Below, in pieces: positions 23,131 to 37,380 of a DNA stretch of 64,000 bases. The translations under genes were made by a program, and so were the position numbers. Under the pieces are notes generated by a model. It was not told the DNA's origin, made no database searches, and was given only the letters and a program-made list of their open reading frames with translations. This stretch comes from Deltaproteobacteria bacterium (lineage in GTDB: Bacteria > Myxococcota > JADLHZ01). Within the stretch, counting starts at the first letter, position 1. The number at the start of each line of letters is the position of its first letter. The DNA is taken from the NCBI GenBank assembly GCA_020848545.1, contig JADLHZ010000044.1, positions 186,001-250,000 of the forward strand, in the 5' to 3' direction.

Positions 23131-23203
23131 GGGGCGTTAGCTCAGTCGGTAGAGCATCGGCCTTTTAAGCCGTGGGTCGCTGGTTCGATTCCAGCACGCC
23201 TCA
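23131..23203 (+). tRNA. tRNA-Lys (TTT)
   Basis: A 73-nt cloverleaf: acceptor GGGGCGT pairs with ACGCCTC, the D arm is GCTCAGTCGGTAGAGC, the anticodon loop is CTTTTAA (anticodon TTT), and the T arm contains GGTTCGATTCC. CCA is not encoded. It lies 15 bp before tRNA-Glu. Confidence 0.93.
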
Positions 23204-23218
23204 ATGCCGCCTTCGCGT

Positions 23219-23293
23219 GGCCCCTTAGTCTAGCGGTCAGGACACGGCCCTTTCACGGCTGTGACACGGGTTCGAATCCCGTAGGGGTCACCA
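23219..23293 (+). tRNA. tRNA-Glu (TTC), integration site of the island
   Basis: A 72-nt cloverleaf plus encoded CCA: acceptor GGCCCCT pairs with AGGGGTC (one G-T pair), and the anticodon loop CTTTCAC gives TTC. Its last 24 bases (T arm, 3' acceptor strand and CCA) are repeated exactly at 35456-35479, marking attL of an integrated element. The integrase gene ends inside this tRNA on the opposite strand. Confidence 0.95.
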
Positions 23294-24576
23294 ACTTTCA
23301 TCATCAAAATCGGAATGTTGCCGGCACTGTAGCGCGGCTGTAGCAAGTTGCCGCGCTCTTCACTGCCCGCGGACTGCCCCCGATTTCCGCTCGCGACCAT
23401 CGGCAACACGTTCGCGTCGCGGCCGCGCACTTCGATCTTCAGCTTCGCGACTTCCTCGCAGAGCAGCTCCCACGGCAGCGACGTGTACATGTTCATGATG
23501 TCGCCGCGCGGGCCGTGCGTGATCGCTTCGAGAATGTCGACGCGTGCGCCGTCGCGACGCGCCAGCGTGATGAACGTGCGGCGCGCGTCGTGCTGTCGCC
23601 GCGGCCGCATGCCGAGACGCTTCAAGTCACCAACGAACGCGAGCCTCGCCGTCTGCACCACGCGGTGTCCGCCGTGCTTGAACGGGACGATGAGGTCATC
23701 CGCCGCCGGCGACGTCGCGTGACCGAGGAAGCGCTGCCAGCCGCTGAGCTTCCAGTCGGCGAGCACGCGCGCGAGCGTCGGATGCACCGGCACCTCGCGC
23801 GACACTTGGGTCTTCGTCGACTTCTCGCTGCGCGTGCGCACGTTGAACGACTTCGCGATGAGCAAATGCGCGAGCGGCTTGCGCGCTTTGTCGTACGCCG
23901 ACCAGCGTAGCGCCGCGACTTCGCCGAAGCGCGCGCCGGTGAGGAAGAGCAGCGCATAGAGCACGCGCCGATCTTCGGGCACTTGCTCGGACGAGATCAG
24001 CGTCTCGACTTCCTCACGCGTGAAGACGGCGCCGGCGCGCCACGACGGATCCTTGTCGACCTTCGCCGGCAGGTCGCCGCGCTTGAGCACGCATGGGTTG
24101 CTCGCGACGAGCTCGTCGACGACGGCCTCCTCGAACATCGTGTGCAACGTGCCGTAGACGTGGCGCACGCTGCGCGGCGCGAGCTGCTCGTCGCCGGGGC
24201 CGCACTTCGCCTTCAACGCGAGCACCAAGTCGCGAATATGCCGCGGGCGGATGTCGAACATGGCGAGCGCGCCGATCGCCGGCGTCGCGTACTTGGCGAT
24301 CCGCGCTTCGTCGTCGTCGACTTCCACACCGCGATCGCGTCGCGCGGTGATCCAACGCTTCGCGTACGCGCGAAAGGTGAAAACGCCCGCGCCGGTTTCG
24401 TCCTCGGCGCCGAGCTTTGCTTGCCGCTCGAGCTCGTCGGCAAAGCGTCGCGCGAGCTCTTCCTGGCCGTGCGCGTACGGCGTCGAGCATTGTCGGCGCG
24501 CGCCGGTCGCGTCGGTGTACGAGCACCAGAGCTTGCGCGTGCCGCTTCGTTTGTAGACGGACGCCATGTCAGCCAC
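23230..24576 (-). CDS. int: Tyrosine-type site-specific integrase
   Basis: A 448-residue phage-type integrase. The catalytic set is complete: Arg 216 (LTGARFGEV), Lys near 255, His 329 and Arg 332 (HDARRTF), His 354 and the nucleophile Tyr 364 (NMYTS). An N-terminal SAM-like core-binding domain covers about residues 65-160. The last 21 residues (VGDPYGIRTR onward) are read from the antisense strand of tRNA-Glu through the attL core, so the natural C-terminus depends on whether the island is integrated. In the circle the frame would continue past residue 436 for 79 more codons. The start overlaps the end of the upstream HTH gene by 8 bp, forming an xis-like/int operon. Confidence 0.92.
   Translation of the reverse strand: MADMASVYKRSGTRKLWCSYTDATGARRQCSTPYAHGQEELARRFADELERQAKLGAEDETGAGVFTFRAYAKRWITARRDRGVEVDDDEARIAKYATPAIGALAMFDIRPRHIRDLVLALKAKCGPGDEQLAPRSVRHVYGTLHTMFEEAVVDELVASNPCVLKRGDLPAKVDKDPSWRAGAVFTREEVETLISSEQVPEDRRVLYALLFLTGARFGEVAALRWSAYDKARKPLAHLLIAKSFNVRTRSEKSTKTQVSREVPVHPTLARVLADWKLSGWQRFLGHATSPAADDLIVPFKHGGHRVVQTARLAFVGDLKRLGMRPRRQHDARRTFITLARRDGARVDILEAITHGPRGDIMNMYTSLPWELLCEEVAKLKIEVRGRDANVLPMVASGNRGQSAGSEERGNLLQPRYSAGNIPILMMKVGDPYGIRTRVTAVKGPCPDR
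23270..23293 (+). repeat. attL core, 24-bp direct repeat
   Basis: Identical to 35456-35479. It starts GTTCGAATCCCG and ends GTCACCA and overlaps the tRNA-Glu T arm and 3' acceptor strand. Confidence 0.95.
23326..23344 (+). promoter_or_regulatory. Candidate integrase arm site, left end
   Basis: ACTGTAGC, then GCGG, then CTGTAGC, 33 bp inside the attL core and within the integrase 3' end. The same octamer occurs twice in the opposite orientation near attR (35336-35351). Paired inverted arm sites of this kind flank attP cores in tyrosine integrase systems. Confidence 0.45.
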
Positions 24577-24892
24577 TTTGCCTGCGAAGGTGAATTACTG
24601 CCAGCTGCTCGGGGGTGTGGTCGGCCTCCTTCGGCTTCGGCCCGGCCGCCATGAACGTGACGAGCTCGTCGCGATCGACGCGGTGGGAGCGGCCGGCTTT
24701 GAGCGCGCGCAGCTCGCCGGCAGCGATCCACTTGCGTACCGTCTTCGGCGTCACACGCGCGAGCTCTGCCGCTTCATTTACCGTCAGGCATGCGCGCTGC
24801 GACGCCGCCGGACTGGAGTGCATCGCCTCCGTCACCGCGGCGCGCACTTCGTCGCGGATCATCGCGCGCAGCGTTCGCTCGAGCTCGGTCAT
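24569..24892 (-). CDS. Excisionase-family HTH DNA-binding protein
   Basis: A 107-residue protein: an N-terminal helix (MTELERTLRAMIRDEVRAAVTEAM) that may dimerise, then an HTH_17/MerR-like domain (LTVNEAAELARVTPKTVRKWIAAGELRALKAGRSHRVDRDELVTFM). Such proteins bend DNA as recombination directionality factors or act as AlpA-type activators. The ATG at 24892 overlaps the stop of the upstream HTH gene (ATGA) and the stop overlaps the integrase start, giving a three-gene coupled operon. Assigned as xis-like from fold and position, not from a specific match. Confidence 0.8.
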   Translation of the reverse strand: MTELERTLRAMIRDEVRAAVTEAMHSSPAASQRACLTVNEAAELARVTPKTVRKWIAAGELRALKAGRSHRVDRDELVTFMAAGPKPKEADHTPEQLAVIHLRRQSG

Positions 24893-25155
24893 GCGCTCTC
24901 CTCTGGTTCGCTTGAATGGACCCCCGCTGGCTGAGCATGCCGCATCGCCCAGGCGCGGATCGCCGCCGGTTCGAAGCGCAGGGCCCGCCGTCGCGAATTG
25001 CTGTCCCCGAGCCGCGTGCACGGAAGCTTGCCGCGCTCCGCAGACTGGTAGACCTGAGACTTGGAGACGCGAAGGTATTGGGCGACGTCGTCTACCGTCC
25101 ACAGCGACTCGTGCCGCGGCTCCTGATGTTCGCACGTGTTCTTCGGCGTAGTCAT
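24889..25155 (-). CDS. AlpA/excisionase-like HTH protein
   Basis: An 88-residue protein with an HTH_17-type domain (SLWTVDDVAQYLRVSKSQVYQSAERGKLPCTRLG, then LRFEPAAIRAWA). It is the second such protein in the operon, upstream of and overlapping the first. The start codon lies inside a cluster of GTAGTCAC octamers (25148-25172), so expression could be controlled by a protein bound there. A role as AlpA-like activator or excisionase is inferred from fold and context. Confidence 0.8.
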   Translation of the reverse strand: MTTPKNTCEHQEPRHESLWTVDDVAQYLRVSKSQVYQSAERGKLPCTRLGDSNSRRRALRFEPAAIRAWAMRHAQPAGVHSSEPEESA

Positions 25156-25252
25156 GTAGTCACCGTAGTCACCTAGTTCCGGTTTGCTCGATCGTGAATT
25201 GGAAGGTTGCCAGTTAACGGAGAATTGCTGTCTACAGTGGCTACGTGACTAC
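25148..25252. promoter_or_regulatory. Inverted clusters of GTAGTCAC-type octamers
   Basis: GTAGTCAT (25148), GTAGTCAC (25156) and GTAGTCAC (25165) lie in tandem over the start of the AlpA-like gene. About 55 bp away three octamers in the opposite sense, CTGTCTAC (25228), GTGGCTAC (25237) and GTGACTAC (25245), sit in the helicase 3' end. The array could bind the HTH proteins or serve as iterons for the primase/helicase. Confidence 0.5.
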
Positions 25253-26678
25253 GACTGTCTTCCTCGTCGGTGGCGATCTTCTTGCGCACGCCGAGCCAGC
25301 CTCTAACCGGAGCGCCGCCCTCGCGCATTGTCGTCTCGCGGCAGCTGCGCTCTCGTAGCCGATCGGCGAACGCCTTGGGTCCGAGCGCGGTCGCTCCCTC
25401 GTCCTCGCACCACGTCGTGTAGCGGTGTCGAATATCGCGGCGAGAGATACGGGCGCCGTCCTCGAGAACACAGCAGTCGGCGAGGAAGTCGCCGAAGATG
25501 TCTTGCTCCCGGCGATACTGCTCGACAGCGCCACAAACGGCCGTAGGTGGATCGACAGACAGGGGCTGAGCTCGCCATAGGGCGTTGCCCTCGACGAGCC
25601 AACGAAGGATCCCCGGCAGCTCAGCGCGCAGCTTCTCGATGAGGCTTGGGTCGCGCTCGGCCTCCGGTATCGTGACGGCGAAAGGGATGAGCTTGATGCG
25701 CCGCCAAATCCCCTCGTCGGTGCCACCGATCGCTGGCTTGTGATTGCCAGCGAGCCAGAGCTTGTGCGTCGGCGCGAACTTCCAGAAGTCCTCTCGCATG
25801 CGGCGCGCCATGATGAAATCGCCACCGGTTAGCTGCTTCACAGTGGTCTCGGCGAAGCGCTTTCCCTGTTCCGTCTCTTGGCAGACGACAAGACGACGCC
25901 CGCACAGAGCGGCCTGCTCGGTCGGGTGTGCATCGCCCCCCTTCGACATGAGCAGGCCCGGAGGTCCCTGCTCGGCGTAGTCGCCGAAGAGCTCGAGCAC
26001 GATGCGCATGAGCGTGCTTTTGCCGTTCGCTCCCGCGCCGTGAAGAAAGAACAGGCACTGCTCGCCGACATCGCCAGTGAGCGTGTAGCCCAGCGCGCGA
26101 TGCACGAAGTGCAACAGCGCTTCGTCACCGTCGAGGATGCGGGCGATGAACGCCGCGAATGTCGGCGCCGTTGCCTCCGCGTCGTAGTTCACAGGTGCAA
26201 CCCTTGTCAGAAGATCCTGAGGATCGTGCTTGCGCAGCTGGCCGGTTGTGAGATCGATCGTTCCGTTCAGCACGTTGAAGAGCAACGGGGCGGCGTCGAG
26301 CTTCTCGTGCGCAATCGCGATCCCGGGCTCCGATCGCGCCATCGCGATCATTGCTGCAACGCGGTCGCGGCCAAGGCTTCGTTTTGCGTGCTTGAAGAGG
26401 TCGGTGTCAGCTGTCTTCGCCGCTTCTGCTAGTAACCGCCTGGCGGTTTTCTTGGCGAGCGCTTCGATTGAAACCCCGTCGTCGATGCGCCAGTGAGAGC
26501 CGCACCAGACGATCCACTTTTGCCACGTCGAGACGTAGCGAACGATCGACCCGTGCTCGTCAGCGAACGCTTGACCGTTGCCAACGTCCGAGCGCGCGAG
26601 CACGTCGCCCGTCTCGGATCTCGGTGCGACCACACGCAGCTCGGGCTCGGCGTCCTGCTTCGCGCTCCGCGCAGTCAT
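25173..26678 (-). CDS. P4/D5-family SF3 replicative helicase
   Basis: A 501-residue protein of the phage/plasmid primase P4 C-terminal type. A D5-N-like domain (LLFNVLNGTIDLTTGQLRKHDP) precedes an SF3 helicase with Walker A GAGANGKST, Walker B-like RRLVVCQE and motif C KLWLAGNHKP. A winged-helix-type tail follows (ISRRDIRHRYTTWCEDEG). It unwinds DNA at the origin of the element. In P4 primase and helicase are fused; here the primase is a separate gene whose stop overlaps this ATG (ATGA at 26675-26678), which also selects the start. Confidence 0.9.
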   Translation of the reverse strand: MTARSAKQDAEPELRVVAPRSETGDVLARSDVGNGQAFADEHGSIVRYVSTWQKWIVWCGSHWRIDDGVSIEALAKKTARRLLAEAAKTADTDLFKHAKRSLGRDRVAAMIAMARSEPGIAIAHEKLDAAPLLFNVLNGTIDLTTGQLRKHDPQDLLTRVAPVNYDAEATAPTFAAFIARILDGDEALLHFVHRALGYTLTGDVGEQCLFFLHGAGANGKSTLMRIVLELFGDYAEQGPPGLLMSKGGDAHPTEQAALCGRRLVVCQETEQGKRFAETTVKQLTGGDFIMARRMREDFWKFAPTHKLWLAGNHKPAIGGTDEGIWRRIKLIPFAVTIPEAERDPSLIEKLRAELPGILRWLVEGNALWRAQPLSVDPPTAVCGAVEQYRREQDIFGDFLADCCVLEDGARISRRDIRHRYTTWCEDEGATALGPKAFADRLRERSCRETTMREGGAPVRGWLGVRKKIATDEEDSRSHVATVDSNSPLTGNLPIHDRANRN

Positions 26679-27568
26679 GTGTGATGACCCTTCTGGCGCT
26701 CTTCGTTGAAGTCCTTGCACCCTGCGACGGGTGTGGCGATATGCACGCGCCGTCCTTCGGCACGGAAGCGCTGCGCGGCTGCGTGCGCTTCTTTCAGGCC
26801 AGTGGCATCGTTATCCGCGATGATCGTGATCTCGGCCGCGAGCGGCAGATCGGGGAGCGAGACACGTGAGAAGTTCGCTGTGCCGAGAACAGCCCAACAC
26901 GGAAGCGTCGGATCGTGGCTGAGCGCGTAGCTGAGTGCGTCCTCGATGCCCTCGGCGATGCCGAGTCGCGCGCCCACGGGCGCAAGACGAACTGCACCGC
27001 CGGCGACCGTGCCCAGCGACTTCTTCGCCGTCTTCGGTGGCACGTTCGCTTTCCCTGTGCCGTCTCGCCGCAAGTAGATGCGATGCACGCCGACGACGCT
27101 GCGATTCGGCCAACGAGACACCGCCGCGACAAGAGCCGGATGTCGCTCGCGCGACTCGGCATGCCAGAGCTCAGACGCGAACCGCAGTGTGGGTGGCGGA
27201 ACGATGTCGATGCAGCGGGACCGCAGGTACGTCTCGACGAGCGTGCTCACGGCTGAGCTCGAGGTCGTCCAGCATGCGAGAGCCTTTGCAGAGCGCTCGG
27301 CCGCGCTTGGCGCGACGTCCAGCGTCGGAGGTCGTCGTTCGTCGCAGCGCAGGTTGCGGTTCTTCAGCGCGGCGAGGATCGCGGCCTGGCTGCAACCGCC
27401 ATGGCACCGAAAGAGCGGCAGCCCGTTTCGACCGATGCGGATTGCGAGCGAAGGCGTCGTGTCCTTGTGCCCGTCGGCGATGCACCGAGCCATGTATTGA
27501 CCCGGCCCGGCTCGCTTTGCACCGAGCTCGCGCACGAGCTGCTCGAAGGTCGTCGACGCGACGCTCAT
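26675..27568 (-). CDS. DNA primase with zinc-finger and Toprim domains
   Basis: A 297-residue primase. The N-terminal zinc-ribbon is CIADGHKDTTPS to FRCHGGCSQ (Cys/His ligands spaced as in CHC2-type primases), and the Toprim domain holds IAEGIEDALSYAL and ITIIADNDATGLKEA, with the acidic residues for metal binding. It makes primers for island replication together with the downstream helicase. The ATG at 27568 is chosen because it overlaps the stop of a 22-codon ORF (ATGA type junction) and the domain starts there; the frame is open further upstream but overlaps the XRE gene. Confidence 0.88.
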   Translation of the reverse strand: MSVASTTFEQLVRELGAKRAGPGQYMARCIADGHKDTTPSLAIRIGRNGLPLFRCHGGCSQAAILAALKNRNLRCDERRPPTLDVAPSAAERSAKALACWTTSSSAVSTLVETYLRSRCIDIVPPPTLRFASELWHAESRERHPALVAAVSRWPNRSVVGVHRIYLRRDGTGKANVPPKTAKKSLGTVAGGAVRLAPVGARLGIAEGIEDALSYALSHDPTLPCWAVLGTANFSRVSLPDLPLAAEITIIADNDATGLKEAHAAAQRFRAEGRRVHIATPVAGCKDFNEERQKGHHT

Positions 27569-27633
27569 TGCGCTCCGCCAGGGCGTGCGCCCATGCGACG
27601 AGCGCCAAGTGCGTCCACGAGATCGCCAATCAT
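27565..27633 (-). CDS. 22-codon micro-ORF coupled at both ends
   Basis: An ATG that overlaps the stop of the XRE gene (27630-27633) opens a 22-residue frame (MIGDLVDALGARRMGARPGG...) whose TGA overlaps the primase ATG (27565-27568). The two exact four-base overlaps are better explained by translational relay between the regulator and the primase than by chance, though no homologue is known to me. Product function, if any, is unknown. Confidence 0.45.
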   Translation of the reverse strand: MIGDLVDALGARRMGARPGGAQ

Positions 27634-27878
27634 CGAGGCTGCTCCGCGATGCGAGCCGTTTTCGCAGCGACGAGAGTTTCGAGCGCAGCCGCGTACCGAC
27701 GACGAAAGCGATCGGATACCTTCGAAGCTCCGCGCTCGAGCGCGCACACATACGTGTAATCAACGCCCATTGCGGCCGCGACGTCAGTGCGCGTGAAACC
27801 GAGGCGCTCTCTCTGTCGCACAAGGGCGCGAAGCGCTGACCATCCGGCGGGTTCGATGAGTGGTGCGGCGTTGCTCAT
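27630..27878 (-). CDS. XRE-family transcriptional regulator
   Basis: An 82-residue HTH protein (LRALVRQRERLGFTRTDVAAAMGVDYTYVCALERGASKVSDRFRRRYAAAL), the typical single-domain phage repressor or Cro-like fold. It is the first gene of the primase/helicase operon, with an AT-rich promoter gap and an inverted repeat (27930-27950) upstream, so it probably controls its own operon. The distinction between repressor and activator cannot be made from sequence. Confidence 0.82.
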   Translation of the reverse strand: MSNAAPLIEPAGWSALRALVRQRERLGFTRTDVAAAMGVDYTYVCALERGASKVSDRFRRRYAAALETLVAAKTARIAEQPR

Positions 27879-29943: not shown

Positions 29944-30237
29944 CTACTTCGCACGACTCTTCGCGTTCTTCAGCTCCGCTGCGATCGCGGTAGGTGCTTC
30001 GCCGAGACGTTGTGGGTCGCCATCGAGCACGTGAAGCCCGATGCGCATCGCCTGCGCGGCGAGGCTCGTGTGCGAGAGGAAGTCCCACCGCTGCACGAGC
30101 TTGTCGAGGAGCTCGCGATCTCCATCGGTGAGCTTCAAGAGCAGTTGGCGCGGCGAGCTTGCAGCCTCCACGCCTCGCTCGAAGTGCTCGCGGGCCCAGG
30201 ATCCTCCGCTCGGCGGATCCTTCTTCTTGGTCTTCAC
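29944..30237 (-). CDS. Small RHH-like protein coupled to serine recombinase
   Basis: A 97-residue basic N-terminus (MKTKKKDPPSGG) followed by GDRELLDKLVQRWDFLSHTSLAAQAMRIGLHVLDGDPQRL, a pattern compatible with a ribbon-helix-helix DNA-binding protein. The GTG at 30237 overlaps the recombinase stop (GTGA) and has GGAGGC as ribosome site, so it is chosen over a GTG 15 bp upstream. Coupling to the recombinase suggests an accessory role in its regulation or site binding. Confidence 0.6.
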   Translation of the reverse strand: MKTKKKDPPSGGSWAREHFERGVEAASSPRQLLLKLTDGDRELLDKLVQRWDFLSHTSLAAQAMRIGLHVLDGDPQRLGEAPTAIAAELKNAKSRAK

Positions 30238-30941
30238 GCCGCCTCCTTGCACACGAGCCTTTGCACTGTCGACTTGCCGAGCGGCTTGCCGGCGCGTCCG
30301 GTAATGCCCTCGGCGGCCAGCCTGGCGACAATGCCGCGCACACTCACGTTCGCTTCGCGCAGTTCGAGGACCCGCGCGATAGTCGCTTGCTCCTTGGCGT
30401 TGACCTCGAGCGTTCGCCCGTTCGACGCGAGGTGATAGCCGAACCGCACGGTGCCCGTGCGCTCGCCGCGCGATCTCTTCGCAGCAAGGGCGGCGCGGGT
30501 GCGCGCACGGATGAGCGCACGCTCGTACTCGGCGAACACGTCGACAATCCGCCGCATCATCAGCGCGGCCGGATCGTTCATGTCGTCGCCGCCCTCGCCA
30601 GCGGCCGATACAACGCGTGCGCCGGCTTTCTCGGCGAGCCGCTCGATGAGCGCGGCCTTCACCACGTCGCGGGCGAGGCGATCGCGCTTCGCGACGACGA
30701 GCAGCCCTGCACCGTTTGCCGTCAGAGCGTCGAGCGCCGCTTGCAGTGCCGGCCGATTATCGAGCTCGGCGGCGCCGCTGATTCCCTGGTCGACGTGCCA
30801 CGCGGCGATCGTGATGCCAGCGGCAGCCGCCCAGCGCTCAATCGCTTCGCGTTGCGCTTCTGGTCCGAGCCGCTGCTCTTCGGTGGAGACGCGAAGGTAG
30901 GCGACGGCTGACTTCGGGTTGGCTCGTGACTTACGTTTCAT
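30234..30941 (-). CDS. Small serine recombinase (resolvase/invertase family)
   Basis: A 235-residue recombinase. The N-terminal catalytic domain has the nucleophile Ser in AYLRVSTEEQ and conserved arginines in VAKRDRLARD and FAEYERALIRARTRAAL. The C-terminal part (GTVRFGYHLASNGRTLEVN to VRGIVARLAAEGITGRAGKPLGKSTVQRLV) is a short Recombinase-type domain with HTH end. It is much shorter than the large serine integrases and is probably a resolvase or invertase. It is a second recombinase besides the tyrosine integrase. The start ATG 30941 is preferred over an upstream TTG. Confidence 0.85.
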   Translation of the reverse strand: MKRKSRANPKSAVAYLRVSTEEQRLGPEAQREAIERWAAAAGITIAAWHVDQGISGAAELDNRPALQAALDALTANGAGLLVVAKRDRLARDVVKAALIERLAEKAGARVVSAAGEGGDDMNDPAALMMRRIVDVFAEYERALIRARTRAALAAKRSRGERTGTVRFGYHLASNGRTLEVNAKEQATIARVLELREANVSVRGIVARLAAEGITGRAGKPLGKSTVQRLVCKEAA

Positions 30942-30985
30942 GGTGTACAACTTAGCAAATGTTAGTATATGATTTCAAGTGTTAA

Positions 30986-32859: not shown

Positions 32860-33034
32860 GGCGTATCTTCCTCTTCGACATGATGGCCGTTCGATCGCGG
32901 AGCGCGAGCGCCAAAAACGGTGCAGCGGCAGCGAACGTGAGCGGCGAGAGGTGCGACAGATCGCGACCGAGCGACTCGACGTAGAACGCGCAGAGCACAG
33001 CGCGCTCGTCGTCGCTGGCGAGCGCGTTACACAC
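32849..33034 (-). CDS. Small hypothetical island protein
   Basis: A short frame ending in LSPLTFAAAAPFLALALRDRTAIMSKRKIRRDN. The start is unclear: a GTG at 33034 overlaps the tail-type gene by 8 bp (61 residues), whereas an ATG at 33121 would extend it into that gene. The hydrophobic centre could be a membrane helix. Possibly a holin-like or accessory protein, but nothing specific supports it. Confidence 0.4.
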   Translation of the reverse strand: MCNALASDDERAVLCAFYVESLGRDLSHLSPLTFAAAAPFLALALRDRTAIMSKRKIRRDN

Positions 33035-34646
33035 GCGACGCTCGCCCGGTGCTTTGACGGCGAGCGATGGCGTGGCCGAGCTCGGCGCGCACGGCCTTAC
33101 GTTCGGCGGGTTCGTCGTCATCCCCGTCGTCATCGCGCTCGAGCGAGCCGACGCGCTTGTGCATGTGAGCGAGGCCGGCGAGCGCAGCACCGATAGCTTG
33201 CTTGATGTCGATCGCTTTGCCTTCCGGCGTGTCGATGACGAGCATGCGTCCGACGGGAGTGCGCTCTGCATCCTGCGCCATGATTCCGATGCGCCGTCCT
33301 TCGCCGTGTTTCTCGTCTTTGTAGTCGAAGGTCTTGGCCACGAGCGCTTCGAGAAAGTCGTCCATGTGCTCGCCGGCGTCGGCGACGTTCTTCTTCAGCC
33401 GGCGATCGGACATCGCTGCCGCGCCCAATGCTCCGACGGCCGAGATTCCGGCTCCGAGCAGCTGCGTGCCGGTCTGCGAGGCCGCCATCGCCACGCCCTT
33501 GTCCGCGGCGGCCTGGCGCGCGAGCAGCTCGGCGTTGAACTGCGACTGCTGCAGCTCGTACTGACGCTTCGCCGCGTCGAGCGACATGCCCTGCGCCATC
33601 AGCGCGCTGATCTGCTCGTCGGCGCTCTTTCGCTGGTCGACACCCGCGAGCAGGTTCGTTTTCATCGCGTCTTGCGACAGGCCAACATTCGTCTTCAGTC
33701 GATCGTGCACAAAGCCGGCGTTCGTCGCGGAGGCTTGCTGCGCGAGCTGCGCGTTCTGGCTTGCGGCGTCGAGATCTTGACCGCGCGCGCCGGCGAGCAC
33801 TGCGCCGAGCTGTTGCCGAGCGTTCTGGATCTCCTGTGCACGCACCGCCGAGGCCTGCGCACCCGTTTGCTGGGCGTTTTGTACCGCAGCGTTCTGCGCG
33901 GCCTGCATCGCGACGCTCTGGTTGCCGCGGCCGCTCTTCGCGAGCGCGATCGCCATTTGGTTGCCGGTGTTCGCACCGGCGCGCATCATGCCTTCAGCCG
34001 CGGAGGGACCTCGACCGGCGCTCTGCGCCATGAGTGCTTCGGCGAGCTGCTGCTGACTGCCGCGAAACTGGTTCGCTCCGCGCTGGTCGAGCTGCGCGGC
34101 GTCCATGCGGCCTTCGGTGTTCATCCATGAAGTGCCCATCGTCAGCGGCTGGCGTTGGTCGAGCTGCGCCAGGCGCTCGCCGATCATCGCCTTGTTCGCG
34201 TCGGTCGTCGTGTCGTCGCTGCGACCCGAGGTGTAGTGCTTGACGACTTGCACGCCGCCGAACGCACCGGGGATGCCGCCCGCGGGCGCGATCGCGTCCG
34301 ACACCTCGACGCCGGCGCGACGCGCTTGCTCCTCCTCGAGCGCACCCGTCGCTGCGTTGCGTGCCGAGTTGTGCGCCATCAGCTCGTCGACGGTGAACGG
34401 TCGACCGCCTGCGCCAGCGGCGATCTCGTCGGCCTTGTTCTGGAACGCGTCGTGTTTGAGCTGCGCGTCTTGGCCAAGCTTGAAGTTCGCGCCGTCGCGC
34501 ATCCCGTCGGCGCCCGGCGTATTGCCGGCGTTCGCTCGCGCCTGCGCGGCCTGAGCGTCTGCGACTGCTCGTCGATTCGCTTCCTCTTCCTCCGGCGTGA
34601 GCGGTCGCTGCGTTCCATCGCCGCGGGGCTTGTATCCAGTGGCCAT
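33027..34646 (-). CDS. Tail-type protein with C-terminal S74 chaperone domain
   Basis: A 539-residue protein. Residues 1-400 are Gln/Ala/Asn-rich helices with repeats (LAEALMAQSAGRG, MAIALAKSGRGNQSVAMQAAQNAAVQNAQQ) as in phage structural or internal virion proteins. From about residue 410, AAMSDRRLKKNVADAGEHMDDFLEAL starts a Peptidase_S74 intramolecular chaperone; Ser of SDRRLKK is the self-cleavage nucleophile and GIMAQDAE the typical second motif. The domain helps fold trimeric tail fibres and is then released. It is the only virion-type protein in the island. The ribosome site AGGAAAC precedes the ATG. Confidence 0.8.
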   Translation of the reverse strand: MATGYKPRGDGTQRPLTPEEEEANRRAVADAQAAQARANAGNTPGADGMRDGANFKLGQDAQLKHDAFQNKADEIAAGAGGRPFTVDELMAHNSARNAATGALEEEQARRAGVEVSDAIAPAGGIPGAFGGVQVVKHYTSGRSDDTTTDANKAMIGERLAQLDQRQPLTMGTSWMNTEGRMDAAQLDQRGANQFRGSQQQLAEALMAQSAGRGPSAAEGMMRAGANTGNQMAIALAKSGRGNQSVAMQAAQNAAVQNAQQTGAQASAVRAQEIQNARQQLGAVLAGARGQDLDAASQNAQLAQQASATNAGFVHDRLKTNVGLSQDAMKTNLLAGVDQRKSADEQISALMAQGMSLDAAKRQYELQQSQFNAELLARQAAADKGVAMAASQTGTQLLGAGISAVGALGAAAMSDRRLKKNVADAGEHMDDFLEALVAKTFDYKDEKHGEGRRIGIMAQDAERTPVGRMLVIDTPEGKAIDIKQAIGAALAGLAHMHKRVGSLERDDDGDDDEPAERKAVRAELGHAIARRQSTGRASRV

Positions 34647-34825
34647 CGTTTCGTTTCCTCGTTCGCGTGGTCTGTTCTGCTGCCTTGGTTTGCTCTAGAT
34701 GTTGTCCACTTGGTTTGGCTGCCGCGTGCTTTGGTTGTCGTTGTCGACGTGCGCGCTTTGGTTCTTGCGTGGGCTTCGCCGGCGCTGCTGGCCGTTCATC
34801 CGAGCCAAATTTTTCACGCACGGTG
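34647..34825 (-). other. Gap between tail-type and DUF5681 genes
   Basis: A GTG at 34821, 4 bp after the DUF5681 stop, opens a Lys/Gln/Pro-rich frame that runs into the tail-type gene in another frame, so it is not supported as a gene. It is probably a leader of the tail-type gene. Confidence 0.4.
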
Positions 34826-35218
34826 TTAGTCGTCGTGTGCGTCCGATGCGGCGATCGCGCGAAGCTCCTCGGTCGACATCGTCGCTGCAGCCTTGAGGTC
34901 GCGTTGCAGCACGAGCTCGCGACGTCTCGCTTCGTCGGCTTCGCCTTCGGCGTGCCCCGGCTTGCCGTAAGCGCGGTCGAGGATGGAGTTGGCCGCGGCG
35001 ATGCGAACCCGTGCGTCGTCGTCTTCGAGCGATTCCGCGAGCACTGCGATGGCGCGGTCGGTGTGTTGGAGCGCGAGCTCGCGAAGGTAAGCCGTGCGCT
35101 TCGGGCGCCCGCCGGGATTGCCGCTCTGACCGGGCACGAAGCGTCCTGATCCGTTCCTGTTCTGAGGCGCCGCTGCTCGTCGGGGAGCAGCGGTCGGCGC
35201 CTTTGGTCGTGCAGTCAT
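34826..35218 (-). CDS. DUF5681 domain protein, small-terminase-like
   Basis: A 130-residue protein. The N-terminal NGSGRFVPGQSGNPGGRPK is the signature of DUF5681, found in phage and mobile-element proteins and often near terminase genes. The rest is helical with an ARVRIAAANSILDRAYGKPGHAEGE segment resembling the HTH-and-linker of small terminases. No large terminase is present. Its ATG overlaps the stop of the frame that crosses attR (ATGA at 35215-35218), so translation depends on what is read from there. A TerS-like role (packaging redirection) is an inference. Confidence 0.7.
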   Translation of the reverse strand: MTARPKAPTAAPRRAAAPQNRNGSGRFVPGQSGNPGGRPKRTAYLRELALQHTDRAIAVLAESLEDDDARVRIAAANSILDRAYGKPGHAEGEADEARRRELVLQRDLKAAATMSTEELRAIAASDAHDD

Positions 35219-35508
35219 CGGGCGCCCCTGGTTATGGCAGCGAGAGCCGTACGCAGAGCGTGCTCGAGCTCGTCGACGTCGCCGGCGGCGTGGGCACGCT
35301 GCGCGGCCGCGAGCGCGTCAGCGATTTCGTCGGTTGCTACAGTGCTACAGTGAGCGTCGCCGGGAGCGCGTTCGCTTCCCTCGCCTGCTGCGCCGCCCCG
35401 CGAAATCGCGGCGTTTTCTTCCTTCGCTTCCCCTCGATTCCCCTCGGCACCGCTCGTTCGAATCCCGTAGGGGTCACCATTTTTTTCCGGCGTCACCGGT
35501 GGCAGCAC
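35215..35508 (-). CDS. ORF crossing attR, in frame with integrase in the circle
   Basis: A 97-codon frame starting at a GTG in host DNA (35508), reading through the attR core as GDPYGIRT, then 79 codons (SGAEGNRGEAKEENAA..., DALAAAQRAHAAGDVDELEHAL) inside the island. The island part has no ATG, GTG or TTG in frame, so it cannot start by itself. In the excised circle the integrase frame enters it in the same phase through the same core, giving a 515-residue product. The stop overlaps the DUF5681 start. Confidence 0.55.
   Translation of the reverse strand: MLPPVTPEKNGDPYGIRTSGAEGNRGEAKEENAAISRGGAAGEGSERAPGDAHCSTVATDEIADALAAAQRAHAAGDVDELEHALRTALAAITRGAR
35336..35351 (-). promoter_or_regulatory. 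Candidate integrase arm sites, right end
   Basis: GCTACAGT twice in tandem, the reverse complement of the ACTGTAGC motif at 23326, lying 104 bp inside the attR core. In the circle the two pairs would flank the core in opposite orientation. Confidence 0.45.
35456..35479 (+). repeat. attR core, 24-bp direct repeat
   Basis: Exact copy of 23270-23293, the tRNA-Glu 3' end including CCA, followed by a T run (35480-35486) that was probably the tRNA terminator before insertion. Confidence 0.95.
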
Positions 35509-35511
35509 GCG

Positions 35512-35706
35512 TTGATCGCCACGAGCACGTTCCTCGGCTTCGCGTCGTTCATCCAGATCGATCGCCGCTACACCGTCGACGTGCTCAACTCGATCGTGAT
35601 CGTGGGACTGTTGCTCTGCGTGTACGTGCGGGAGATGGGGCGAGAAGGCGTACTTCGATCGCTAGGGCGCACCAGCTCGCGCACCTGGCTTCTTCACTTC
35701 TTGTAG
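35512..35706 (+). CDS. Possible small membrane protein
   Basis: A 64-residue frame from a TTG (MIATSTFLGFASFIQIDRRYTVDVLNSIVIVGLLLCVYVREMGRE...) with one or two hydrophobic stretches. It starts 32 bp after attR, so it was downstream of tRNA-Glu before insertion. No ribosome site is evident, and it overlaps the convergent gene end by 13 bp. Doubtful. Confidence 0.3.
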   Translation: MIATSTFLGFASFIQIDRRYTVDVLNSIVIVGLLLCVYVREMGREGVLRSLGRTSSRTWLLHFL

Positions 35707-37235
35707 TAAGAGTAGATGAACCACGCGCCTTCCGGGGGGCCGTAGCGGCCGAGGCCGAGGTGCCGCTCTTCTACGGCGATCCCAAGCGCGAACGGATAAC
35801 GGAACGCCGGATCTGTGCAGTCGTACATGACGTACTTATAGCGTCCGACGTGGTTCTCGCCCGTGCCGTCCGTTCGCCACTCGTGCTTCTCGACGCCGAG
35901 CGGCTTGCACTTGGTCTTCGGCCAGCTACCCGCGATGTAGGCCTTGGCGACGCTGGCGAGCGCCGGGTCTTTGCCCCCGAGCGTCGTGCCTTCTTTGGCG
36001 AAGCGCGTGAGCAGCGGTGCCTTTTTCTTCAGCAGCTTGGCGAAGGTCGCGACGTATTCTTCGATCTCTTTTCCGAGCGCCGGCACGTCGGCGTTGACCG
36101 GCAGATTGAGCGCCTTGCCGTACGCGAGGAAGCGACCGATACGGGCTTGCAGCTTCTTCTTCGCGTACTCCGGCGCGTCCTTCGCGGCGAGCACGTCCGT
36201 GCCGTCGTCCGGCCGATAGTCGTTGTTGTAGCCGTCTTCGGTCGGCTTCAAGAGCCGCATGAACTCCTCGACGTGTTTCTTCGGGTCGAGCGGCACCGTG
36301 CGCGCGAAGAGCTCTTTGTGGCGTGAGACGACGTCGGCGATCGTACGCGGGCAGTACGCGCACTTCGGCGTGCGTTCGAGCGGTGGGAGCTCCGGGAACT
36401 TCGCTTTCAACGCCGCGTCCGCTTTCGCCCAAGCCGCGAGCACCTTCTCGAACTCTGGCACAGCCTCTGGCTCGGTTTCGTGCGGCGGCGGCAACGACGT
36501 CGAGTCGCCGAGCGCAAAAGCGAGCGTGAATTGCAGGTTCATCGCCTTCAGCTCACGCAGCGGCTTCACCACCTCTTCGAAGGCTTCGTAGGTCCAATCG
36601 TCGACGAAGTGTTTCTCGTTGATGACGTTGAGGTCGGTGTAGCCGGTGATGGTCGCCTTGTAGCCTCCGCCTTCGACCGATGTGATGGTCGCGGGCAGGA
36701 AGCCGTTCGAGACGTAGCGCACCTTGGCGCCAGCCTTGTATTTCATCTGCGAAGGATCCCACGTGCCTTTGATGTCGCCGAGCGCGATGCGCGACTCGAC
36801 GCCGCCGCTCGTGTAGCTCCAGCTGTACGGCCCCGCGCTCCAAAGCTTGGCGACGAATCTCTCCGGATCGCTCGCGCGCTGAACGTAGACCCAGTCTCCT
36901 GACTTGTAGCCGGCCTGCGCCGCCGCGGCCTTCATCTCCTGATCTTTCTTCTCTGCCGCTTCCTGCTCGGGCGGTACGCGAAGATCGGTCTCGACGAGCC
37001 AGGCGTCATAGGGCGCTGCCCAGCCGTCATAGTGGACGAGGTAGCCCTTCTTGGCGTCGCAGCGCACGACGGTCGCTTTCGCCCACTCTGCGTCTTTCTT
37101 TGCCTGGATGCGTTGTTCGCGCCGAAACAGCGCACAGTTTGTCGCTGCCGAGGCGGAGTTGATGAGCGCCAGTGACAAGCACGCGACGGCGCTCGCGGAC
37201 GCGATGAGAGTGCCGAGGAAACGACGGTGAGGCAT
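35694..37235 (-). CDS. Secreted protein with Tudor-knot-like domains
   Basis: A 513-residue protein with a signal peptide (MPHRRFLGTLIASASAVACLSLALINSASA). After it, KATVVRCDAKKGYLVHYDGWAAPYDAWL closely follows the Tudor-knot/chromo-barrel pattern (VHY-x-GW-x3-x-D-x-W) that is typical in eukaryotic chromatin proteins. A second barrel-like stretch (GAKVRYVSNGFLPATITSVEGGGYKATITGYTDLNVINEKHF) occurs near residues 165-210. The C-terminal half contains CAYCP and paired Cys (TKCKPLG, YDCTDP) suggesting disulphides. Secretion makes a histone-type ligand unlikely; the barrel may bind another polymer. An ATG at 37244 is an alternative start. Confidence 0.65.
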   Translation of the reverse strand: MPHRRFLGTLIASASAVACLSLALINSASAATNCALFRREQRIQAKKDAEWAKATVVRCDAKKGYLVHYDGWAAPYDAWLVETDLRVPPEQEAAEKKDQEMKAAAAQAGYKSGDWVYVQRASDPERFVAKLWSAGPYSWSYTSGGVESRIALGDIKGTWDPSQMKYKAGAKVRYVSNGFLPATITSVEGGGYKATITGYTDLNVINEKHFVDDWTYEAFEEVVKPLRELKAMNLQFTLAFALGDSTSLPPPHETEPEAVPEFEKVLAAWAKADAALKAKFPELPPLERTPKCAYCPRTIADVVSRHKELFARTVPLDPKKHVEEFMRLLKPTEDGYNNDYRPDDGTDVLAAKDAPEYAKKKLQARIGRFLAYGKALNLPVNADVPALGKEIEEYVATFAKLLKKKAPLLTRFAKEGTTLGGKDPALASVAKAYIAGSWPKTKCKPLGVEKHEWRTDGTGENHVGRYKYVMYDCTDPAFRYPFALGIAVEERHLGLGRYGPPEGAWFIYSYYKK

Positions 37236-37380
37236 GACGATCATGAGCGAATGCTTGCCGATTGCTCCCGGCGATCAAGAAAAATGTCCGCCTGAAGCGC
37301 GACTTCAGCGCGCGAGCCGCACACGAATCCGATGCCCGGCGCGACAACGGCGTGCTCCACTGCGGAGGTCCACTGAGCGA

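Follow-up and report, generated by a model that had tools for sequence, protein, structure and literature searches.

Integrases with attachment sites in their own genes

Only a very small number of elements, with Mx8 among those named, are known to have their attachment site within the cognate integrase gene (PMC4701971). In Mx8, int contains attP, and Mx9 follows a similar principle (PMC6070905). Integration of Mx8 swaps a C-terminus of 112 residues for 13 residues, and the modified enzyme is less active (PMC4701971). Mx8 and SSV have also been treated as known cases in the Islander paper (PMC4383910). Splitting of a suicidal integrase leaves two inactive pieces, the C-terminal one of which contains the catalytic domain (PMC8371274). 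In streptococcal ICEs integrated into rumA, the attachment site is likewise found within the integrase gene, and both the length and the C-terminus of the protein change on excision (PMC4701971). The facts on Mx8 used here were drawn from reviews and GenBank records; in the GenBank record of this phage, the recombination core lies inside intP and is followed by 112 codons.

An island with an integrase of the Mx8 type

The window, which is the whole stretch of 64,000 nucleotides that was analysed, contains an island with a tyrosine integrase whose best match among 50,697 phage records is Mx8 Int (41% identity over 386 amino acids, E 4e-90). The start of this int gene is overlapped by the end of a gene encoding a helix-turn-helix (HTH) protein, which has 44% identity over 61 amino acids to Uoi of Mx8.

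23230-24576, minus strand: tyrosine integrase in its integrated form, 448 amino acids (Pfam PF00589, PHROG integrase, 41% identity to Mx8 Int)
24569-25135, minus strand: Uoi-like HTH protein of the excisionase family, end overlapping the int start (TIGR01764 excise, 1.3e-12; match to Mx8 Uoi)
24889-25155, minus strand: second small HTH_17 protein, upstream (Pfam PF12728)

The island is a new element of the Mx8 integrase type, and the principle of its mechanism is already known from Mx8. The original prediction had described the precedents as having a different arrangement, which is wrong: the arrangement is the same in Mx8 and also in Mx9, and the integrase of the window is homologous to Mx8 Int. 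Both elements encode homologous integrases whose frame contains the attP core with flanking repeats, both have a Uoi-like gene overlapping the int start, and in both a long C-terminus is replaced by a short host-derived one (from 112 to 13 residues in Mx8, from 79 to 12 residues here). Mx8, like the window island, integrates into a tRNA gene. In contrast to Mx8, with its target tRNA-Asp and its genome of 49.5 kb, the element described here targets tRNA-Glu and is an island of 12 kb; the tail sequences are only weakly similar, and the next gene overlaps the int stop, whereas it lies 47 nt downstream in Mx8.

Besides the tyrosine integrase, the island encodes a serine resolvase-family recombinase (30234-30950) as well as a D5-type helicase/primase and a Toprim primase beside the xis-int genes (25173-27823). 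No capsid or terminase gene was recognised among the island proteins scanned. In its content, the island resembles a phage satellite or small integrative plasmid.

Attachment sites and integration target

An exact repeat search identified the 24-bp core GTTCGAATCCCGTAGGGGTCACCA at positions 23270-23293 and 35456-35479, and the island between these two copies has a size of about 12.2 kb. There are only two copies of the core in the 8-Mb genome, even if two mismatches are allowed in its last 23 bases. The copy at 23270-23293 constitutes the 3' end of a tRNA-Glu gene.

23219-23293, plus strand: tRNA-Glu (ttc), integration target, intact at attL (ARAGORN)
23270-23293, no strand assigned: attL core, 24 bp, inside int (antisense) and at the tRNA 3' end (exact repeat)
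35456-35479, no strand assigned: attR core, second 24-bp copy (exact repeat)
35694-37244, minus strand: host gene on the far side of attR, directed at the island and a possible origin of read-through when the element is integrated (ORF list)

The int gene, which is encoded on the minus strand, terminates within the tRNA-Glu gene in antisense orientation. It crosses attL as GDPYGIRT and ends with 12 residues antisense to the tRNA, so that the integrated integrase carries the host-derived C-terminus RVTAVKGPCPDR. The int transcript runs antisense into tRNA-Glu and then into tRNA-Lys (23131-23293), and strong transcription of int could disturb both tRNA genes.

The integrase frame in the predicted circle

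The original prediction held that the int frame passes through the attL core as GDPYGIRT and that the core at attR is read identically and in the same phase, which was confirmed by reconstruction of the attP junction. In this reconstruction, GDPYGIRT is followed by 79 residues, resulting in one frame of 515 codons compared with 448 residues in the integrated state. As had also been proposed, the 79 island codons include no ATG, GTG or TTG; in the integrated state, a GTG at 35508, just beyond the island, opens this frame as an ORF of 97 codons. The predicted overlap of the fused stop with the start of the DUF5681 gene was found as well: the stop TGA at 35217-35215 shares four nucleotides (ATGA) with the ATG at 35218.

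35215-35455, minus strand: 79 codons and a stop encoding the C-terminal tail of the free integrase, contiguous with int in the circle only (junction reconstruction, comparison, structure)

According to this sequence reconstruction, integration exchanges the 79-residue tail for a shorter C-terminus of 12 residues. Based on motif positions, the core corresponds to residues 429-436 and lies behind all of the catalytic residues (R216, H329, R332, H354, and Y364), which leaves the integrated gene with a complete catalytic domain. The location of the attachment site inside the integrase gene is shared with the archaeal SSV-type integrases and would fit a suicidal enzyme that is inactivated by integration. 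In contrast to these integrases, the catalytic domain remains intact after integration, and an SSV-type assignment, which we regard as having a negligible probability, was rejected because this domain is left undivided. The streptococcal ICEs in rumA differ in another respect, as they have an unrelated serine integrase and another target.

Conservation of the fused frame

In this GC-rich island, 79 or more open codons follow a random position on the same strand with a probability of about 0.39. At a single locus, openness alone is therefore no evidence, and the case rests on comparison. This probability leaves room for an incidental frame, in which the 79 codons would be only the P arm of attP and stop-free by chance in DNA with 65% GC. 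The arm-site repeats within the tail stretch (see below) and the GC3 of the window tail, which at 0.67 is below that of the int body (0.87), point in the same direction.

For the comparison, 36 loci with relatives of the integrase were collected from two additional MAGs and otherwise from genomes belonging to the same phylum. The int frame of 25 of these 36 relatives either stops within a tRNA or tmRNA gene or passes through one, in antisense as it does in the window. A second att copy was located upstream for nine of them, which together with the window gives 10 mapped elements; the targets of the nine are tRNA-Asp (2), tRNA-Val (2), tRNA-Glu (2), tRNA-Lys (1), and tmRNA (2). Past the core, the fused int frame is open for 78-117 codons in all 10 islands with both att sites, whereas openness over 78 codons is seen in only 3 of 20 cases for the other two frames (Fisher p 9.5e-6). 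With one member kept per related pair, the contrast has a p of 0.0015. The conservation in related islands that the original prediction called for was thus found, and the frame is broken at attP in none of the 10. A chance origin has to be weighed against this preference for the int frame over the other frames, against the resemblance of the tail to the tails of uninterrupted viral integrases, and against the prediction of a confident helical hairpin (both described below). An incidental frame is already largely refuted and very improbable, and the comparison of sequences makes it well supported that the fused frame would be a real gene in the circle.

In 13 further relatives, the search for the far att site was unsuccessful, in many cases because the contig or the available sequence ends. 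In three relatives (G051:C41, G090:C112, and G181:C56), int stops 27-59 nt before the tRNA or tmRNA gene, and no second att copy was found; an attachment site within int is therefore not universal in the wider family. These three may have lost this design. At the same tmRNA 3' end, the core is read in different frames, as WRRRESNPRP in L022, L030, and G116:C42 and as EAAGIEPA in L023 and L028, and the host-derived tail sequence thus seems to be unconstrained.

The tail as a protein domain

An alignment-based scan of viral contigs led to the identification of 20 IMG/VR loci with relatives of the window integrase; a scan of the viral contigs with the single protein gave no match. At several of these loci, int is one uninterrupted frame with a tail that ends in the same kind of sequence. 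The window tail has 46% identity to that of L139 with a local score of 52 (best of 1000 shuffles, 45) and reaches a score of 49 with that of L123 (best of 1000 shuffles, 40). It also aligns with the island tails of G092:C6 and G092:C128 (shuffle fractions 0.005 and 0.002, respectively). These pairwise shuffle tests were used in place of a first tail HMM, which was based on a poor alignment and whose score was equalled or exceeded by 71 of 5000 shuffles. With a profile built from three tails, no further convincing tails were retrieved from 195 genomes, and the weak matches inspected were unrelated proteins.

AlphaFold2, run on the tail with a five-row alignment, predicted that the first third is disordered and is followed by a hairpin of two helices (residues 31-57 and 60-78) with a pLDDT of 95-98 over tail residues 41-70. 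In the last 40 codons, the second codon position is lowest in GC in all ten tails, which is a coding-type bias. For comparisons between tails, the overall Ka/Ks lies only slightly under 1, and the case does not depend on it, since the linker half of the tail is variable. This half is not conserved, and a part of it doubles as DNA of putative arm-type sites, which were identified by 7-mer counts.

23327-23344, no strand assigned: int-side pair of putative arm-type sites, two copies of CTGTAGC
35336-35350, no strand assigned: tail-side pair of putative arm-type sites, two copies of GCTACAG, inverted relative to the int-side pair

The 7-mer GCTACAG/CTGTAGC occurs six times on both strands of the 64 kb, and four of these occurrences are in the two att arms. 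Similar inverted pairs around the core were seen by eye in L132, L139, and L128. In L132 and L139, the paired arm-like sites GGTTGCCA and TGGCAACC are inverted about the core and are translated as MATLATLA directly before the hairpin; the anatomy is the same as in the window, and the arm sequence is different. Residues shared between tails derive partly from arm sites, such as CSTVAT in L123, and some of the tail similarity may thus reflect a constraint on the DNA. Judged from its sequence, the tail DNA serves twice, as a putative attP arm and as coding sequence. The tail as a conserved folded domain is well supported.

Genes beyond the junction

The tail is followed by two genes on the same strand.

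34826-35218, minus strand: DUF5681 gene, ATG overlapping the stop of the fused integrase (PF18932, 1.1e-8)
33027-34646, minus strand: S74 (endosialidase-chaperone) domain protein, downstream of DUF5681 (PF13884, 1.8e-9)

In the reconstructed circle, the xis-like/int run continues directly and co-directionally into DUF5681 and then into the S74 gene, in agreement with the original prediction. In 8 of 10 islands, there is either an overlap or no gap between the fused stop and the next ORF: the overlap is four bases in the window, G148, G078, G092:C128, and, with a doubtful ORF, G035, and eight bases in G057 and G117, and the gap is zero in G092:C6. Among 11 distinct viral contigs, six have a four-base overlap with a candidate ORF. 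A high GC content readily gives rise to GTGA overlaps, and the more telling cases are only those with ATGA, namely the window, G148, and the viral L121 and L128.

The co-directional gene run with its ATGA overlap, and the recurrence of overlap or abutment in most islands and several viral contigs, raise the possibility that excision is mainly an expression switch. In that case, the int promoter would read into DUF5681 and S74, which would be silent in the integrated state, and the change of the tail would be secondary. No sigma-70-like promoter was found in 34800-36000, including the region from attR to DUF5681, which would also fit but is a weak test in this phylum. On the minus strand of the same region, no terminator-like site was called, and the folding of the stretch is not unusual (z -0.03). 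Since the host gene at 35694-37244 points toward attR without a recognised terminator, the island genes need not be silent when integrated. Furthermore, DUF5681 has its own start with AGGGG upstream, and the genes downstream of int differ between islands, so that no specific late operon is conserved. A precedent is found in Tn916, in which transcription proceeds across the ligated ends after excision, as for the transfer genes (PMC7288454). State-dependent promoters have been reported for int of ICEKp1 (PMC13023037). As in Tn916, circularisation would be required before transcription from the int end could reach the genes behind the junction. A fusion of the integrase frame has not been reported for the Tn916 attachment sites. 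That excision may switch on the DUF5681 and tail-type genes, as the original prediction proposed, is thus a plausible consequence of the joined ends. Taken as the main role of excision, an expression switch is rather unlikely; it is compatible with a switch of the protein tail, and the two are not mutually exclusive.

Proposed mechanism

A switch between a free and an integrated form of the integrase through an attP site inside int, as in Mx8, is as a whole a highly probable explanation. In the circle, int would be one gene of 515 codons, the last ~160 of which would hold attP with its core and its two sets of arm sites. On insertion at the tRNA-Glu 3' end, int would be cut downstream of the complete catalytic domain, and the 79-residue tail, consisting of the predicted disordered linker and helical hairpin, would give way to 12 residues antisense to the host tRNA gene; excision would restore the tail. 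Judging from Mx8, full activity most likely belongs to the free form of the integrase, with the integrated form being the weaker one. A weaker integrated form would favour or stabilise the integrated state, and the Uoi-like excisionase would give direction by aiding excision. The circle would also join the xis-int gene run to DUF5681 and S74 by the ATGA, which may couple translation, and we infer that co-expression after excision is a likely by-product.

Implications for the integrase family

New here are another element of the Mx8 type and the family-wide generalisation across related islands and viruses. The 10 mapped islands suggest that, in one phylum that includes the myxobacteria, a large integrase family usually has its attachment site within int, with tRNA-Glu, tRNA-Asp, tRNA-Val, tRNA-Lys, and tmRNA as mapped targets. 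The anatomy of the family consists of the catalytic domain, paired arm sites, the core, inverted paired arm sites, and the helical hairpin, often with a stop that overlaps the next gene. A tentative extension is that the circle junction has been selected throughout the family as a two-level switch, which turns the integrase tail on or off and translationally couples the next gene; if this were true, downstream genes would respond to excision across the whole family of islands and phages. For annotation, the C-termini of integrases from integrated copies should be read with caution, as they are host tRNA antisense and not native protein. The role of a swappable tail becomes testable across many elements.
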